The position numbers and the translations under genes were made by a program. The notes under the pieces were generated by a model that had not been told where the DNA came from, searched no databases, and saw only the letters and a list, made by a program, of their open reading frames with translations. From assembly GCA_903899015.1 (NCBI GenBank), contig CAIUHP010000089.1, positions 1 to 52,250 on the forward strand: a DNA stretch of 52,250 nt, read 5' to 3'. Of this stretch, positions 1 to 7,260 are shown one piece after another (positions within the stretch are counted from its first letter, which is position 1; every line of letters begins with the position of its first letter). Source of the DNA: an uncultured Armatimonadota bacterium. GTDB taxonomy: Bacteria > Armatimonadota > Fimbriimonadia > Fimbriimonadales > Fimbriimonadaceae.

Positions 1-61
1 CGCGAGAGGCCTCAGAAAGGATCTTTACAATCTGATCCTCAGTGAACTTTGATTTCTTCAA
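1..61 (-). CDS. IS3-family transposase OrfA, N-terminal fragment
   Basis: Twenty codons are visible before the window edge, reading (M)KKSKFTEDQIVKILSEAS. This matches the opening of IS3-family OrfA proteins (KKSRFTEEQI-type), the helix-turn-helix subunit that is made alone or fused to the OrfB integrase by frameshifting. The start codon is TTG at 61-59. A GGAG ribosome site lies five bases upstream (67-70 on the + strand), which decides the start. Only the first helix of the protein is present here, so the element's integrity cannot be judged. Confidence 0.75.
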   Translation of the reverse strand, partial: MKKSKFTEDQIVKILSEASR

Positions 62-112
62 TGCAACTCCTTACGTCTTCAAGACGAGGAGACTAATCTA
101 ACGGCTGGTACA
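1..112 (-). mobile_element. End of an IS3-family insertion sequence (rest lies left of the window)
   Basis: Read on the minus strand, position 112 begins TGTACCAGCC, a TG-starting end as expected for IS3-family inverted repeats. About 50 bases further in is a transposase OrfA start. The bases just right of 112 continue an open BcsB reading frame, which places the junction at or very near 112. The other end, the inverted-repeat partner and the target duplication are outside the window, so the exact boundary is inferred. A short palindrome (CGTCTT, one base, AAGACG, 74-86) sits between the end and orfA. Confidence 0.7.
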
Positions 113-165
113 GATTTCTGAGGAGCACTCCAGAAGAACCGATCGGATCCCGTGCGCTGAATGAC

Positions 166-1848
166 ATGTCGCATTCTTCGCAACGCTGGAATATCCTGCT
201 ACCCAAAAAATTCATCAAAGAAGGATTCAATGAGGTTACGATTGCTTCTCAAACTCGCTCAACGGAAGGGCCCTGCCGAGATGATGACGATTTAAGGAAC
301 TGGATTCGAATCCTGCCCACCACCGTCATAACCTTGGACTTGGCTAACCAAGCTCCATTTCCACTCATTGCTTTTCCGTATCCGTACATCAACTGGCTTT
401 CTCAAACGGCTTCCAGTGTTCCCATCGTCGTGTCGCCAAATGCGACAAGTAGCACTCTTTCCGAAGCTCTCAATTTGTCATCAGGATTCGGTAAACGACT
501 GACCGATAAACCCGTCCAAATACGATTAACGCACACCCCATCCGGCAAAATGAATGTGCGATTTGGATTGGCAGCCGATCTTGGAAATTTAGCACCAAAG
601 TCGAACATTGAATCGAGACTCGACGGACTTTGGATAAGTGGACCAAACGCGAACGCCCTGCGCGACACGGTAAACACGCTCAATAATCCTTCCCTCATCA
701 GCCAGATGATTGGCACGGTGGCTAACTTATCGACTTATGTTCCCAAACCGGCAGTTGCTTCAACTCGAATTGGAACCGCCACGTTTAGTGAGATTGGCTT
801 CCCAAGCATCAATCTCAACGGAGTCGGCACTCAAACGTCTTCACTTGTTCTCCATCGCCCACTTCTCATTCCGTTAGGGCGAGGTGGAGAATTAAGGATT
901 AAATTCCGACACGCGGCAACCCTCATGCGGGTTCGCTCGCTGCTCTCGGTTACCATCAACGATCAGCCCTTGGCGAGTGTCAACATGACACCTGAAAACG
1001 CTAACGATGGTGAATTGGTTTGTAACGTTCCCATTGAAATCGTAGATTCCAACGAATGGCGCATACAGATCACGGCTCATAACGAACTCGCAAATGCAGA
1101 TTGCTCCAAATCCTACGATGATGTTGCGTGGACAAACATATTAGGCAGCTCAAGTTTTCAGCTTCACGAAGGAGCCTTGCCGAACACCCCGTACCTCGAT
1201 GGATTTCCTTACCTAAGGGGCAAAGACGGAAAACTTCCTGAAACGCTCACGCTTAACGCCGGCAAACAGCAGACCGATACGATGCTGACACTTGCAGCGA
1301 CCACAACGGCACGTGCTTCGCAAATGAATCGAGCGCTAACCCATTGGGCCCTTTCGACCGAAGCTGTTACAGGTAACGAGGATGTTATTGTCGGCTATCT
1401 CAATGATGAAGAGAGATTCAAAGCCATCGCATCTCGACTGCTGATCGTTCCTAACAAACATGGAATTCCGATGATCAGCAAAGAGATACCCGTTCTAGCT
1501 TCATCGCTTACTGACGCGGTCGTTGTTCAAGCAATTCCAAAGACATCTGGCGGCGCTTGCTACGTTATCTTAGGAGCATCCGACGAAGCTATCGCTCGAT
1601 TCTTAGATTACATAACCAGTCTAAAGGGTTTTAACGCAATGTCGGGCCAAGTTGCGGTGTATTCAAAACAGGGCGAAATGTTTGTTTTCGATACCGTGAC
1701 TCAAGCAGATCGACTTGCAGCAGAAGAGAACGAGATGAGCCGGTACCGGCCATCCATGACACTCGCGATGAGCATCGTTGGAGGGCTTTTCGTTCTTCTC
1801 ATCATCTTCATTGCTAGTAAGTTCGTAAAGCGAAAGCCAAAGGCATAG
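166..1848 (+). CDS. 5'-truncated BcsB-like periplasmic polysaccharide-synthase subunit (IS-interrupted)
   Basis: This is the periplasmic membrane-anchored partner of a polysaccharide synthase, of the BcsB family (cellulose synthase subunit B). The visible part has 560 residues from the first ATG. It holds the end of a first carbohydrate-binding module (LLPKKFIKEGFNEVTI, then PCRDDDDLRNW), a second module near residues 220-340 (PLGRGGELRIKFRHA; LSVTINDQPLASVNM), and a C-terminal membrane helix at about 530-552 followed by KRKPKA. Full BcsB proteins are usually 700-800 residues and begin with a signal peptide, and both features are missing here. The frame stays open upstream of the ATG to the IS junction at 112 (RFLRSTPEEPIGSRALND) and meets a stop inside the IS at 94-96. 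The gene was therefore cut by the insertion. Any product would lack its export signal and is probably non-functional. Ten bases separate it from the glycosyltransferase downstream. Confidence 0.8.
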   Translation: MSHSSQRWNILLPKKFIKEGFNEVTIASQTRSTEGPCRDDDDLRNWIRILPTTVITLDLANQAPFPLIAFPYPYINWLSQTASSVPIVVSPNATSSTLSEALNLSSGFGKRLTDKPVQIRLTHTPSGKMNVRFGLAADLGNLAPKSNIESRLDGLWISGPNANALRDTVNTLNNPSLISQMIGTVANLSTYVPKPAVASTRIGTATFSEIGFPSINLNGVGTQTSSLVLHRPLLIPLGRGGELRIKFRHAATLMRVRSLLSVTINDQPLASVNMTPENANDGELVCNVPIEIVDSNEWRIQITAHNELANADCSKSYDDVAWTNILGSSSFQLHEGALPNTPYLDGFPYLRGKDGKLPETLTLNAGKQQTDTMLTLAATTTARASQMNRALTHWALSTEAVTGNEDVIVGYLNDEERFKAIASRLLIVPNKHGIPMISKEIPVLASSLTDAVVVQAIPKTSGGACYVILGASDEAIARFLDYITSLKGFNAMSGQVAVYSKQGEMFVFDTVTQADRLAAEENEMSRYRPSMTLAMSIVGGLFVLLIIFIASKFVKRKPKA

Positions 1849-1858
1849 GACTGAATCT

Positions 1859-3925
1859 ATGACACTCAACGGTTATGACTTCCTGATTATGCTTCGCGAC
1901 TTTTTCGCGTGCATGACTTGGGTGGTATCAATCGTCTACTTCCTGAGTGGTTCTCAAGATTTTGTTTACGATATCGGTGCGTATTGGTTACGTTTTTGGC
2001 GGCAGTACACCTATCGTAGGCAGCCTCGATTGACTCTTGAAAGACTTCGAGCCAAGGAACAACAGCGGATCGCGGTCATGGTGCCAGCTTGGAACGAGGG
2101 CGAAGTTGTCGCCAGCATGGTTGACAACATCATCAAACGGGTCGAATATGACAATTACTCGATCTTTGTTGGCACCTATCCCAACGACCCGGCAACCCAG
2201 TCCTGTGTCGATCGCCTCTCAAAGGAATATCCGCAGATCATCAAGGTGGTTACGGCTCGTCCAGGGCCGACTACGAAAGCCGATTGTCTTCACAACGTAC
2301 TTTCGACCATTCGAAACAAAGAAGAAACGGAAGCGATTAGCTACGACATCATCCTCATGCATGATGCCGAGGACTGGGTTCATCCTCAAGAGTTTTTGTT
2401 ACACAACTACCTCATTCCGCAGGTCGACGTCGTTCAGCTTCCTATCCTCCCCTTCCCGACGAAGTGGAATAAGTGGGTGCATTGGATCTACGCGGATGAA
2501 TTCAGCGAAAACCATATGAAGGATGTTCCGGTCCGAGAGAAGATCTCGGGCTTCGTGCCGTACGCAGGCACGGGAACCGGATTTTCCCGAAAGGTCATCG
2601 ATTTTCTTTCGGAAGAGCATGACGGTCACGTATTCAACGAATCGTCAATGACCGAGGACTACTCGATGTCCAAGAAGATTCGAGAAGCCGGTCTTAAATC
2701 AGTCTTCGTAAACGTGGTTCTGGGAGATGACGACTCTCCTTGGTGGAAGCCCCTATGTAAGCGTCCGATGTTCGTCTCGAATTGGTCTTACTTCCCAATG
2801 GACTGGACTCGATCTGTACGCCAGAAGTCTCGCTGGATTATTGGTATCTCACTTCAAGAGTGGGAGCAATCAGGATGGGAAGGCAGTTGGCTCATGAAGG
2901 AGAACTTCGTGAAGGACCGCAAAGTTTTCGTTGCGGCATCGGCGTCTTTTCTTGGCTATTTCATCCTGCTCTACTTCGTAATCTATGCCATGGGGCAAGC
3001 AGGCTGGCTTCCTTTTAGATTGCTTTCCATTCTTAAACCAGGAACTGCGCTTGCCAACTTAGTTAAGTTCTGCACTTTCTTCATGGTCTTGCGAATTACC
3101 CAACGTATCACGTGGGTGAGTCTTACCTATGGTCTCGGTGCCGGGCTCTTGTCGGTCCCGCGATTGATGGTTGGAAACGTGCTGAATGGCCTGGCAACTT
3201 TCCGAGCTCTCAAAGTCTTCTCAGACTCTCGTAGCGGCAAAGCGGCTGTTCGATGGGACAACACTCAGCACCTTGAGGGTATCGGTGACATGGGCGGCGA
3301 AGATCGCACCAAGCGCAAGGTCGTCGTTCAAGTCGTTCCCCTCGATCAGGTTATTGCAGGTCTGATTTCAGGCAATCCTGATGAAATCGTCAAGTCACTA
3401 AGAAACATTCCTAGCCAAGTAGACGACCTGGAACGTGCTGAAATCATTGCTTATATTCGGCCACTCGTTTCAAGTGAATCTCTGAAAGTTCGGGCTGCGC
3501 TTGCACAAACTTTAGGAACACTTATTTGGCGTGAGCTAACTCCAACTCTGTTTCACATGCTCAGTGATGAGGACAACGTGGTACGTATGAACGCCGCTCG
3601 GGCACTTGTAGAGCGCCCAAAGGTGGGAGCACTTCTTGAGCAGGCTTTCATTTCCCAAGGGCCACGCGCGGTCGAGACTTTGGTTCGAGTCATTGAGATG
3701 GATCGCAAGCGGCAGCGTCAGCTCTTCGACCTGATCGGCCGCGAGAACTTAACGGTCACGAAGACAACGATCATCATGTCGTCACCCATCCTTCGTAAGC
3801 GTTACGCCAAGTACTTAGAATCACAGACCATTGACCCAGGCACGAGCGTTGCGGCGGTTCAGATGGAACCTCCGGCCATCGAACCGGCTCCTGCTAAATC
3901 AGAAGCATTCGTACATCTCCCCTAA
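1859..3925 (+). CDS. NfrB-like family 2 glycosyltransferase with C-terminal HEAT-like repeats
   Basis: This is an inner-membrane processive glycosyltransferase closely resembling the GT2 part of E. coli NfrB, which makes an N-acetylmannosamine-rich exopolysaccharide used as phage N4 receptor. Shared segments include IAVMVPAWNE (71-80), FVGTYPNDP (103-111), ARPGPTTKADCL (133-144), the metal-binding DAED (169-172), the TED catalytic triplet (265-267) and the product-binding QKSRW (322-326). Membrane helices lie near 9-29, 358-380 and 395-425. NfrB ends in a cyclic-di-GMP-binding MshEN domain. Here residues ~495-640 instead look like alpha-helical HEAT repeats (ESLKVRAALAQTLGTL; DNVVRMNAARALVERP). 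No PilZ RxxxR motif is seen. The gene follows the BcsB-like gene after ten bases, with AGGA upstream of the ATG, so the two formed an operon. After the IS insertion it may rely on a promoter in or near the IS. The sugar substrate is unknown. Confidence 0.82.
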   Translation: MTLNGYDFLIMLRDFFACMTWVVSIVYFLSGSQDFVYDIGAYWLRFWRQYTYRRQPRLTLERLRAKEQQRIAVMVPAWNEGEVVASMVDNIIKRVEYDNYSIFVGTYPNDPATQSCVDRLSKEYPQIIKVVTARPGPTTKADCLHNVLSTIRNKEETEAISYDIILMHDAEDWVHPQEFLLHNYLIPQVDVVQLPILPFPTKWNKWVHWIYADEFSENHMKDVPVREKISGFVPYAGTGTGFSRKVIDFLSEEHDGHVFNESSMTEDYSMSKKIREAGLKSVFVNVVLGDDDSPWWKPLCKRPMFVSNWSYFPMDWTRSVRQKSRWIIGISLQEWEQSGWEGSWLMKENFVKDRKVFVAASASFLGYFILLYFVIYAMGQAGWLPFRLLSILKPGTALANLVKFCTFFMVLRITQRITWVSLTYGLGAGLLSVPRLMVGNVLNGLATFRALKVFSDSRSGKAAVRWDNTQHLEGIGDMGGEDRTKRKVVVQVVPLDQVIAGLISGNPDEIVKSLRNIPSQVDDLERAEIIAYIRPLVSSESLKVRAALAQTLGTLIWRELTPTLFHMLSDEDNVVRMNAARALVERPKVGALLEQAFISQGPRAVETLVRVIEMDRKRQRQLFDLIGRENLTVTKTTIIMSSPILRKRYAKYLESQTIDPGTSVAAVQMEPPAIEPAPAKSEAFVHLP

Positions 3926-4013: not shown

Positions 4014-7000
4014 TTATCGAATTACCCAGAAGCTACCACCGGATGAACCGATGTAGACTCGGCCATCTGCAGCAATCGACGGAGAACTCTGTCCGTAAGT
4101 GTTTCCGGTGAGGAACCTCCACTTCGGCAATCCATTTGGACTGACTGCATAGAGGTTGGAGTCCTGCCCTTGGAAGTAGATTGATCCGTCGGATGCAACT
4201 GACGGTGAGCAAGAGATTGAGTAGTAGGTTGGGAACGTCCACTGCCCTTCGCCAGCGACGCTAATGCAATATAGATTGCCATCATACGAGCCAACGTAGA
4301 TCATTTTGCCATCGGGCGAGAGCGCGACAGACGATTCAACTTGAGCCCCCAAAGTCATGGCCCAAAGCTTGGTTCCGTCTGATTTTAGAGCGTAAACATT
4401 GCTGTCTGACGAACCAAAATAGATGTTCCCGTTTGCATCGATAGTCGGAGTGGAGTGAATGGGGCCACCTGCTTTAAATGCCCACTTCTTCGTACCGTTT
4501 GAGTTCAGAGCGTAGAGATTTCCATCGTCCGATCCAATGTAAATCGTACCGTCGCTTCCGATAGCGGGTGACGAGGTACCGTTTTGAGTTGATCCAGTAG
4601 CGAACTGCCAGACCTTATTACTTCCCGCGATCGCATAGACAATGCCGTTTGTCGATTGAAAATAGACGTTGCCATTTGCTCCGATAGCGGGAGACGAAGC
4701 GACGGGACCAGAAGCTTGGAAGGCCCAGTTCTTCGCTCCTGAGCTTGAAACGGAATAAACAAATCCGTCGAGCGATCCAACGTAGACTGATCCATCCGCA
4801 GCAACCGCTGGTGAAGAAATCACTTCGCCATTTGTCGCGAAGGCCCACTTCTGGGACCCGTCCGGGTTGCCTGCCATGAGTTTCGATCCGACGCCTACGT
4901 AGATCGTTCCGTCAGATCCAAAGCTTGGAGAAGACAGGATTCGCGTTCCAGCTTGCTGGCTCCAATTCTTGGTTCCATCTGGCTTCACGGAGTAAAGAAT
5001 TCCGTCGTCAGAGCCAAAGTTAATCGAGCCGTCAATTCCAACCGTCGGTGACCCTTCAATGGTGTTACCCGTCTTGAAAGTCCATTTTTGAATGCCTGAC
5101 GAGCTTACTGCGTAGACATTGGAATCATAGGATCCGATATAAATGTTGCCCGTTACGTCAATTGCTGGGGATGACATTCCTGTCTGATCGCCTGTTATGA
5201 ACGTCCATTTTGGACTGCCATTGGAACTGACCGCATACAGAACATTTGTCCACGCTCCTACGTAGATCGTGCCATCTGGGGCGACAGCAGGAGTAGTGTC
5301 AATTGCCGAGCCAACCAAAAACTGCCACTTCATAGAGCCGTTGAGGTTGATGTCGTAAAGATATCCGTCGTCTGAACCGACCAGGACCGTTCCATCCTTT
5401 GCAAATGCGGGCGATCCGTTGACGAAGCTACCAGTTGGGAAAGTCCACTTGAGAGATCCGTCAGCCTTAATCGCGTAGACGTTGTTGTCCCGCCCACCGA
5501 AATAGACCGTTCCGTCGGTTCCAACTTTGGGTGATGAGTAGATCGGAATATGAGTGGCGAAGGACCATTTTAGAGTTCCTGCCGAAGTTACGGCATAGAG
5601 ATTGCCATCGTCGGAACCGACATAGACGGTTCCGTCGGCCGCCAAAGCTGGCGAACTGTTGATTTGGTCTCCGGTCTTAAATGCCCACTTCTTCGATCCA
5701 CTTGTGGAAAGGGCGTACAGATTGCCATCGCCTGAACCAACATAGATCGTTCCACCCGAAGAGATCGCCGGTGTAGAAACGGTTGCAGCGTTGGTCTGGA
5801 ATTGCCAAATAAGTTGCCCGGTGGCACTCACCTTCACAACGTAACCGCCGGAAGTTCCGGCGACTAATGATCCGTCTGAAGCATAGACAATGTTGGTTGA
5901 GATGTTGCCAACGCCACCGGCATTGAACGAAAGCGCTCCCGTCGCACCAAAGCCCTTACCAACGGCAGTGTTCGCAGAATTTCCTCTGAATTTGGGCCAG
6001 GCAGTATTAGCCAAGCCGTAAACAACATTGGTAACGGTGAGCGTTGCCTTTAGGGGTGATCCCGACAACGGTGTCGCTGTGATATTAGCCGTCGTCGTCG
6101 CGCCAACAGATGATGTCCCAATCGTGAAGGTTGCCGTTGTCGCTCCGCTACCAACCGTTACGGATGTAGGAACGGTTACTGCGGCATTATCACTTGCCAA
6201 ACTAACCTTATATCCACCCGTTGGAGCCGATCCGGATAAGGTGACAGTGCCAGTTGAAGAAGAGCCATTGTTAACGGTTGTTGGGCTGACCGTAAAGGAC
6301 TGAAGTGAAACGGAGTTAATCGTCAAGGTAAGTGCGATTGAGGTCGCACCCGATTTAGCGGTGATCTTTGCAGTAGTCGGTGATGAGACTGTCTTCGTAG
6401 TCACCTGAAAATTGGCGGAGCTTGCTCCCAAAGGAATCGTGACTGAAGCCGGCACGGTCGCAACCGTCGACGACGATGTAAGTGTCACTTTTACGCCGGT
6501 TGAAGCAGCTTTCCCGTTGAGAGTGATCGTGCCTGTACTTGAACCACCACCACCCACCGTCATAGGCGAGAGAGTGAAACCATTGAACGTGGCTGCCTTA
6601 ATTGTTAGTGGAGCTGACACCTTCGTGCCTGCCGCCGACCCAACGACTATCGCAACGGCATTTGCAGAAACGCCAGTTGTGTTGCATGTGAAAGTGGCCG
6701 ATGTTGATTGACCAGGGATCACGACAAAGGACGGACCACCCCATGCCTTATTAGAAGAGGTCAACGTAACGGTAAGGCCGGAAGCCGGGGCGGGTGAACT
6801 GATCTTAACCGTTCCGGTGGCAGCTGCTCCTCCAAACACGGAATTTGGACTAAACGTCATGCTTGTGAGCTTTGGCGCCTGAATCGTTAAGTTTGCGGTA
6901 GCGGAACTTGAACCGAGCGTCGCTTTAATCGGTGCGGTTCCGGTCAATTGAACAGGGACTGTTTGCACCATAAAAGTTGCAGTTGTTTTGCCACTTGCAA

Positions 7001-7223
7001 CGGTTACCGAACTTGGAACGGTGGCATTGGGGTTCGTGCTTGATAGGTTAACAACCGCACCCGTCCCACCTGCTTTCGCAGACAGAGTCACCGTGCCTGT
7101 CGAAGAAACGCCACCCACAACGGTGGGAGGAACAAAGGCGACTTTTGTGACTTTCTGCGCCAAACAGAACGGAGCCAATAAGGCACAACTGACAATCAAA
7201 GCAATTTTCAAAAGGGGTTTCAT
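4014..7223 (-). CDS. Secreted protein with four Ig-like repeats and sixteen PQQ-type propeller blades
   Basis: The exported protein has 1069 residues. The start at 7223 is chosen because MKPLLKIALIVSCALLAPF forms a clean signal peptide; an in-frame ATG at 7253 adds ten residues that spoil it. Residues ~25-400 hold four ~90-residue Ig-like beta repeats, each opening like FSPNSVFGGAAATGTVKIS. Each has a following TATF or SATF strand typical of such domains in Armatimonadota and Acidobacteria. From ~410 to the end come sixteen blades of ~39 residues with the pattern DGTIYVGSDDGNLYAL plus a KWAF-like strand, that is PQQ/quinoprotein-like propellers, possibly two eight-bladed rings. No catalytic dehydrogenase signature was seen, so a binding or surface-scaffold role is more likely than enzyme activity. 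Substrate and partners are unknown. It is transcribed alone and convergent with the glycosyltransferase. Confidence 0.85.
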   Translation of the reverse strand: MKPLLKIALIVSCALLAPFCLAQKVTKVAFVPPTVVGGVSSTGTVTLSAKAGGTGAVVNLSSTNPNATVPSSVTVASGKTTATFMVQTVPVQLTGTAPIKATLGSSSATANLTIQAPKLTSMTFSPNSVFGGAAATGTVKISSPAPASGLTVTLTSSNKAWGGPSFVVIPGQSTSATFTCNTTGVSANAVAIVVGSAAGTKVSAPLTIKAATFNGFTLSPMTVGGGGSSTGTITLNGKAASTGVKVTLTSSSTVATVPASVTIPLGASSANFQVTTKTVSSPTTAKITAKSGATSIALTLTINSVSLQSFTVSPTTVNNGSSSTGTVTLSGSAPTGGYKVSLASDNAAVTVPTSVTVGSGATTATFTIGTSSVGATTTANITATPLSGSPLKATLTVTNVVYGLANTAWPKFRGNSANTAVGKGFGATGALSFNAGGVGNISTNIVYASDGSLVAGTSGGYVVKVSATGQLIWQFQTNAATVSTPAISSGGTIYVGSGDGNLYALSTSGSKKWAFKTGDQINSSPALAADGTVYVGSDDGNLYAVTSAGTLKWSFATHIPIYSSPKVGTDGTVYFGGRDNNVYAIKADGSLKWTFPTGSFVNGSPAFAKDGTVLVGSDDGYLYDINLNGSMKWQFLVGSAIDTTPAVAPDGTIYVGAWTNVLYAVSSNGSPKWTFITGDQTGMSSPAIDVTGNIYIGSYDSNVYAVSSSGIQKWTFKTGNTIEGSPTVGIDGSINFGSDDGILYSVKPDGTKNWSQQAGTRILSSPSFGSDGTIYVGVGSKLMAGNPDGSQKWAFATNGEVISSPAVAADGSVYVGSLDGFVYSVSSSGAKNWAFQASGPVASSPAIGANGNVYFQSTNGIVYAIAGSNKVWQFATGSTQNGTSSPAIGSDGTIYIGSDDGNLYALNSNGTKKWAFKAGGPIHSTPTIDANGNIYFGSSDSNVYALKSDGTKLWAMTLGAQVESSVALSPDGKMIYVGSYDGNLYCISVAGEGQWTFPTYYSISCSPSVASDGSIYFQGQDSNLYAVSPNGLPKWRFLTGNTYGQSSPSIAADGRVYIGSSGGSFWVIR

Positions 7224-7233
7224 GGAAGATTCC

Positions 7234-7260
7234 GACTCCAAGCCAATTAACATTGGAGTC
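7234..7260 (-). promoter_or_regulatory. 5'-leader stem-loop covering a GGAG ahead of the propeller gene
   Basis: GACTCCAA (7234-7241) and TTGGAGTC (7253-7260) form a perfect eight-pair stem with an 11-base loop, ending 11 bases before the ATG at 7223. In the transcript the downstream arm contains the only GGAG near the start, so folding would hide it. The rest of the 7224-7530 gap holds the divergent promoters for this gene and the oxidoreductase. A TTGACA at 7393 has no convincing -10 partner, and nothing else firm is seen. Confidence 0.4.

Follow-up and report, generated by a model that had tools for sequence, protein, structure and literature searches.

Near the start of a 52,250-nucleotide stretch of DNA from an uncultured Armatimonadota bacterium (hereafter the window), a bcsB-like gene is followed by a gene for a processive family-2 glycosyltransferase (GT2) that resembles NfrB of Escherichia coli. 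We consider it fairly probable that this glycosyltransferase (GT) is an NfrB-type synthase that builds and exports a sugar polymer and that, in a typical cassette of its kind, it is partnered by a BcsB-type protein. Cyclic di-GMP (c-di-GMP) is a common activator of synthase-dependent exopolysaccharide systems, among them those for cellulose, PGA and NfrB (PMC8669469). Here, the c-di-GMP domain of E. coli NfrB appears, from both sequence and structural model, to be replaced by a solenoid of HEAT repeats, and the bcsB gene of the window has been cut short by a mobile element. The cassette offers a testable case of how NfrB-type synthases get re-wired. Coordinates are collected in Table 1.

A predicted NfrB-like synthase core

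Family models agree with the initial annotation, which had read positions 1859-3925 as an NfrB-like transferase. The predicted product matches GT2 models in Pfam (8e-36) and the PRK15489/NfrB models of NCBIfam at E values of 2e-135 and 2.6e-124 over residues 16-471, both matches lying below the curated cut-offs. On NF008411 (c-di-GMP-activated glycosyltransferase NfrB) it scores 416 bits, over residues 16-471 only, and does not reach the equivalog cut-off of 1170; E. coli NfrB, used as a positive control, scores 1333 bits on this model. The core shares 40% identity with E. coli NfrB, which in the NfrBA-YbcH system is the synthase of the N4 glycan receptor (PMC8669469, PMC8669472), and carries the DAED, TED and QKSRW motifs at matching positions. 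The E. coli NfrB residues that match D169, D267 and the tryptophan of the QxxRW motif have been tested by mutation (PMC8669469). Mean column identity is 70% across 15 aligned homologues, and the model of the synthase core resembles structures of BcsA/hyaluronan synthase (9fmv, Z 12.7, root-mean-square deviation (rmsd) 6.3, 321 residues; 8snc, Z 12.5, rmsd 7.1, 322 residues).

A predicted HEAT tail in place of a c-di-GMP domain

Behind this core, the initial annotation had placed HEAT-like repeats at residues 490-640, the position held by the MshEN domain in E. coli NfrB. Those limits proved right to within about 20 residues: in the AlphaFold2 model, residues 493-657 form a solenoid made up entirely of helices, for the most part at pLDDT 80-90. 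The tail passes the Pfam gathering scores of HEAT_2 (PF13646, 35 bits vs 27.7; 1.8e-8) and HEAT (PF02985, 30.9 vs 23.5; 2.3e-7), its family profile matches alphaRep/HEAT chains of the PDB down to 6e-22, and its modelled fold matches alphaRep and HEAT structures in Foldseek and VIA-align comparisons (5dcq, Z 13.4, rmsd 4.9, 146 residues; 6veh, Z 12.9, rmsd 3.9, 145 residues). An MshEN or PilZ domain in the tail, named by the initial annotation as the competing outcome, was rejected: the window GT has no Pfam or NCBIfam match to either at E values up to 1 (PF05157 and NF053729 absent), and the same models recover E. coli NfrB at 3.8e-14 (PF05157, MshEN) and 1.4e-18 (NF053729, MshE-related c-di-GMP motif). 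A crude pattern for the start of MshEN had its sole match in the tail at one KVGALL string.

The tail evolves faster than the core, their mean pairwise identities being 0.38 and 0.69, yet it is constrained, with pN of 0.22-0.30 vs pS of 0.65-0.87, values that indicate purifying selection at the sequence level. Only pN and pS were compared, and dN/dS was not used, because synonymous sites were saturated in most pairs. HEAT repeats are kept in those Armatimonadota copies that were checked and also in Anaerolineaceae. Elsewhere, one relative (L071) has TPRs at the C-terminus, and in other phyla numerous NfrB-like GTs stop near residue 470, tailless forms of 455-476 amino acids being found in Ignavibacteriota/Bacteroidota and in other relatives. 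With HEAT repeats here, TPRs in one relative and nothing in others, the sensor position therefore acts as a site where control parts can be swapped while the polymerase core stays conserved. As a separate observation, the TPR-tailed NfrB-like GT lies directly 3' of a UDP-GlcNAc 2-epimerase gene (L071:6821-9992) on a contig binned as Methanofastidiosum, possibly through mis-binning or gene transfer.

The bcsB gene of the window is interrupted

The initial annotation had taken positions 166-1848 as a BcsB-like subunit, and this holds for the family but not for the extent of the gene. The window fragment passes the Pfam gathering score of PF03170 (93.4 bits vs 21; E 1.5e-26), and its frame extends back to base 133, from where it reads EEPIGSRALNDMSHSS and at which it is severed (132/133). 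Positions 136-1836 align in tblastn with residues 82-648 of a complete BcsB from a congener (L033), at 49% identity. Because this alignment begins at residue 82 and the frame is open to base 133, the open reading frame (ORF) at 166-1848 is a 5'-truncated bcsB with an internal ATG, whose product would lack the signal peptide and the first part of CBD1 (approximately residues 1-81 of the complete L033 homologue).

The adjoining bases 1-132, the end of an insertion sequence, occur in at least 8 copies in the same genome, at 99-100% identity; all copies that were examined lie at contig ends and diverge from the window after base 132-136, and base 1 of the window is itself base 1 of contig C89. We take LKKSKFTEDQIVKILSEASR, encoded on the minus strand, to resemble the start of an IS3-type OrfA, a likeness that no family model confirmed. 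The 20-amino-acid piece had no convincing match in Pfam or NCBIfam, so the family of the insertion sequence (IS) is a guess, and comparison of the IS DNA with plasmids gave only one weak partial match. Neither the missing 5' part of bcsB, for which a search returned only the paralogous copies on contigs C69 and C45, nor the gene located just before bcsB in relatives was found elsewhere in the assembly, which is 99.9% complete. Either a simple insertion with an unassembled flank or an IS-linked deletion would account for the cut gene.

Table 1. Features in the first part of the window, with strand and basis of assignment
Feature	Position	Strand	Basis
Insertion-sequence left end	1..132	-	Repeated copies in own genome; minus strand opens TGGAGTGCTCC, encodes LKKSKFTEDQIVKILSEASR
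bcsB-like gene, 5'-truncated	133..1848	+	PF03170 1.5e-26; tblastn to L033 BcsB; ATG at 166 internal
Predicted C-terminal transmembrane anchor of BcsB-like protein	1756..1812	+	Hydropathy; helix 620-644 in L033 model
Predicted HEAT-tailed, NfrB-like processive GT2 (688 amino acids)	1859..3925	+	Pfam, NCBIfam, alignment, AlphaFold2
DAED motif	2363..2374	+	D169 aligned with catalytic D169 of E. coli NfrB
TED motif	2651..2659	+	D267 aligned with E. coli NfrB D267
QKSRW (QxxRW) motif	2822..2836	+	W326 aligned with E. coli NfrB W330
Predicted C-terminal membrane helices of synthase core, residues 344-458	2888..3232	+	AlphaFold2 helices; segment 357-375 by hydropathy too
Predicted HEAT-repeat solenoid, residues 493-657, at MshEN position of E. 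coli NfrB	3335..3829	+	Pfam, AlphaFold2, structure matches
1079-amino-acid protein with PQQ-type beta-propeller repeats, convergent with cassette	4014..7253	-	Homologues beside several cassettes

Typical cassettes pair the transferase with BcsB

Complete homologues of the truncated protein score 118-144 bits on PF03170 and, judged by modelling, have a genuine BcsB fold. The L033 model shows the order CBD1-FD1-CBD2-FD2 followed by a transmembrane (TM) helix at residues 620-644; it yields a Foldseek match of 1.9e-29 and aligns with E. coli BcsB (6yg8) at Z 19.5 and rmsd 8.4 over 507 residues, the best unrelated row reaching Z 10.4.

The pair is conserved in relatives, as the initial annotation had supposed. 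Across 291 Armatimonadota genomes the GT was present in 11, and BcsB was found in 10 of these 11 and in none of the other 280 (Fisher test: 1e-17 for genomes, 6e-6 for genera, with no correction for relatedness in either case). Distances between GTs correlate with those between their BcsB counterparts (r = 0.95, 14 pairs, 0 of 5000 permutations), and in family f1 the two genes are adjacent in most cassettes, separated by gaps of about 4-62 bp where both are present. The genome of the window holds three copies of the cassette, namely that of the window on C89 and those on C69 (77%) and C45 (55%), and four congeners hold two or three copies apiece. The C45 cassette is intact. The bcsB on C69 contains an in-frame TAG (L031:10900-11080) behind which the frame continues; recoding was set aside here, a single stop in one copy of a metagenome-assembled genome being simpler as a pseudogene or consensus error.

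In most cassettes of the genus, bcsB or the GT is preceded by a gene for a zinc-ribbon protein of 184-284 amino acids (for example, L033:8680-9234), with CPxC in its N-terminal part, CxxC in its C-terminal part and a hydrophobic segment between them. This putative membrane protein matched no family above cut-off, and a distant relative is encoded elsewhere in the genome of the window (C106).

A proposed synthase and its alternatives

In the arrangement we favour, the GT would be a processive NfrB-type GT2 polymerase in the inner membrane, taking nucleotide sugar from the cytosol and passing the lengthening chain out through membrane helices of its own; in a typical cassette, a BcsB-type protein held in the membrane by a single C-terminal helix would contact the synthase and receive the chain in the periplasm with its carbohydrate-binding-like domains. 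As to the sugar, E. coli NfrB is thought to use UDP-ManNAc (PMC8669469, PMC8669472), and the window GT might do so too. The genome of the window has a single WecB-type epimerase, encoded at a distance from the cassettes. Since its bcsB is interrupted, the GT of the window probably functions without a BcsB of its own, borrows a paralogous one, such as that of the intact C45 cassette, or is decaying.

Several observations weigh against this arrangement. The GT model contains low-confidence stretches (mean pLDDT 62), which leaves the channel for the chain without a direct model, and no outer-membrane exporter was identified, no search for one having been made. Five GGDEF proteins are encoded in the genome of the window, which makes indirect control by c-di-GMP possible. 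Family f26 has BcsB at a site that is not next to the GT, and the HEAT-type GTs of Anaerolineaceae have no BcsB nearby. Within the five-species orthologue group of the window, bcsB is absent from three species (L036, L039 and L042), which retain the GT and the zinc-ribbon gene, and is cut in the window, so that only G013 has an intact copy; BcsB is therefore typical but dispensable in this branch. The cassettes without bcsB, the unlinked genes of f26 and the Anaerolineaceae copies are also what would be expected if the NfrB-like GT and BcsB were not one machine, the GT acting alone and the co-occurrence reflecting an inherited gene block. We judge this distinctly improbable, given that the co-occurrence holds even where the genes are unlinked, that the genomes lacking the GT all lack BcsB, that f1 cassettes with both genes keep them close together and that the two proteins diverge in a correlated manner, although this last is partly expected from shared descent.

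As to control, we infer from the fold that the HEAT tail may dock a regulator. We tentatively propose that Armatimonadota possess a distinct class of BcsB-partnered synthase in which a HEAT docking module, probably together with the zinc-ribbon protein as a membrane subunit, has replaced allosteric control by c-di-GMP; if true, polymer export in these bacteria would be switched by a protein partner instead. The different control mechanism suggested by the initial annotation is borne out as to the loss of the c-di-GMP domain, and its replacement is conjectural. The tail might instead be a structural or oligomerisation element only, on a constitutive synthase with any control being transcriptional. 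Tailless NfrB-like GTs imply that the core does not need a tail, and the lower conservation of the tail points the same way, but the fact that Anaerolineaceae and the Armatimonadota copies examined retain it, together with the purifying selection on it, makes a purely structural role rather doubtful. We also regard as unlikely that c-di-GMP control survives through a separate receptor docked to either the zinc-ribbon protein or the HEAT tail, in the way that YdaK serves YdaM/YdaN of Bacillus subtilis. The GGDEF proteins speak for such a receptor, as does the example of this putative exopolysaccharide (EPS) synthase, whose c-di-GMP receptor is a separate protein (PMC7064775), but the genome of the window has no PilZ protein and no MshEN linked to a GT, the three MshEN matches in it being found on other contigs, within open frames of 535-595 amino acids, and no GGDEF protein was noticed beside the inspected cassettes, whose neighbours were not all annotated.

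Relation to known systems

The initial annotation had suggested an undescribed exopolysaccharide system with a different partner, but in principle the pairing is known: NfrB-like or MshEN-type GTs are already paired with BcsB in Achromobacter and in sfz clusters, and the pair is therefore not new. Sellner et al. (2021) mention briefly, without further characterisation, that the nfrA-nfrB-wecB cluster of Achromobacter xylosoxidans includes a BcsB homologue (PMC8669472); NfrB and BcsB homologues occur together there as they do here, but in the company of NfrA and WecB. For stalk formation in iron-oxidising Zetaproteobacteria, an sfz cluster has been proposed in which an IPR007831-GT2 protein is paired with one resembling BcsB (PMC8250860). 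Sfz1/Sfz2 of these stalk formers thus also set a BcsB-like protein beside a GT2 with an accessory domain, but in Sfz2 that domain is reported to be N-terminal and of the EpsE/T2SS type (IPR007831), whereas the window GT has C-terminal HEAT repeats, a distinction drawn by description. A Legionellaceae locus (L082:3589-10905) likewise has ORFs for an NfrB-like GT, a WecB-like epimerase and a BcsB-family protein side by side.

Compared with E. coli NfrBA-YbcH, the window GT has a HEAT solenoid rather than MshEN, adjoins BcsB rather than NfrA/YbcH and scores far below the NfrB equivalog cut-off. The BcsA-BcsB cellulose synthase shares the BcsB fold and a GT2 synthase with membrane helices, but the GT here is of the NfrB type without a PilZ match, and no BcsA-type partner was found for the BcsB of these cassettes. 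YdaN is a BcsB-like protein. YdaM/YdaN of B. subtilis, likened here by description, are a putative EPS synthase pair encoded in one operon (PMC7064775), but differ from the cassette in being regulated by the separate c-di-GMP receptor YdaK. What we have not found described is the HEAT tail in place of the c-di-GMP domain and the Armatimonadota cassette; literature searches returned no paper joining HEAT repeat with glycosyltransferase and BcsB, or NfrB with Armatimonadota, although some may exist, and, with the terms tried, none on exopolysaccharide synthases in this phylum.

Genes beside the cassettes

The PQQ-type beta-propeller protein encoded downstream of the window GT has counterparts elsewhere: ORFs of its similarity cluster adjoin cassettes in L034, L037, L039 and L040, an association through which it is a possible matrix partner. 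Cassettes of the C45 type have convergent genes of the dTDP-rhamnose type (rfbB, rfbA and rfbC-like) in three species (L032:3533-6050, L038:13667-16197 and L041:2331-4867).

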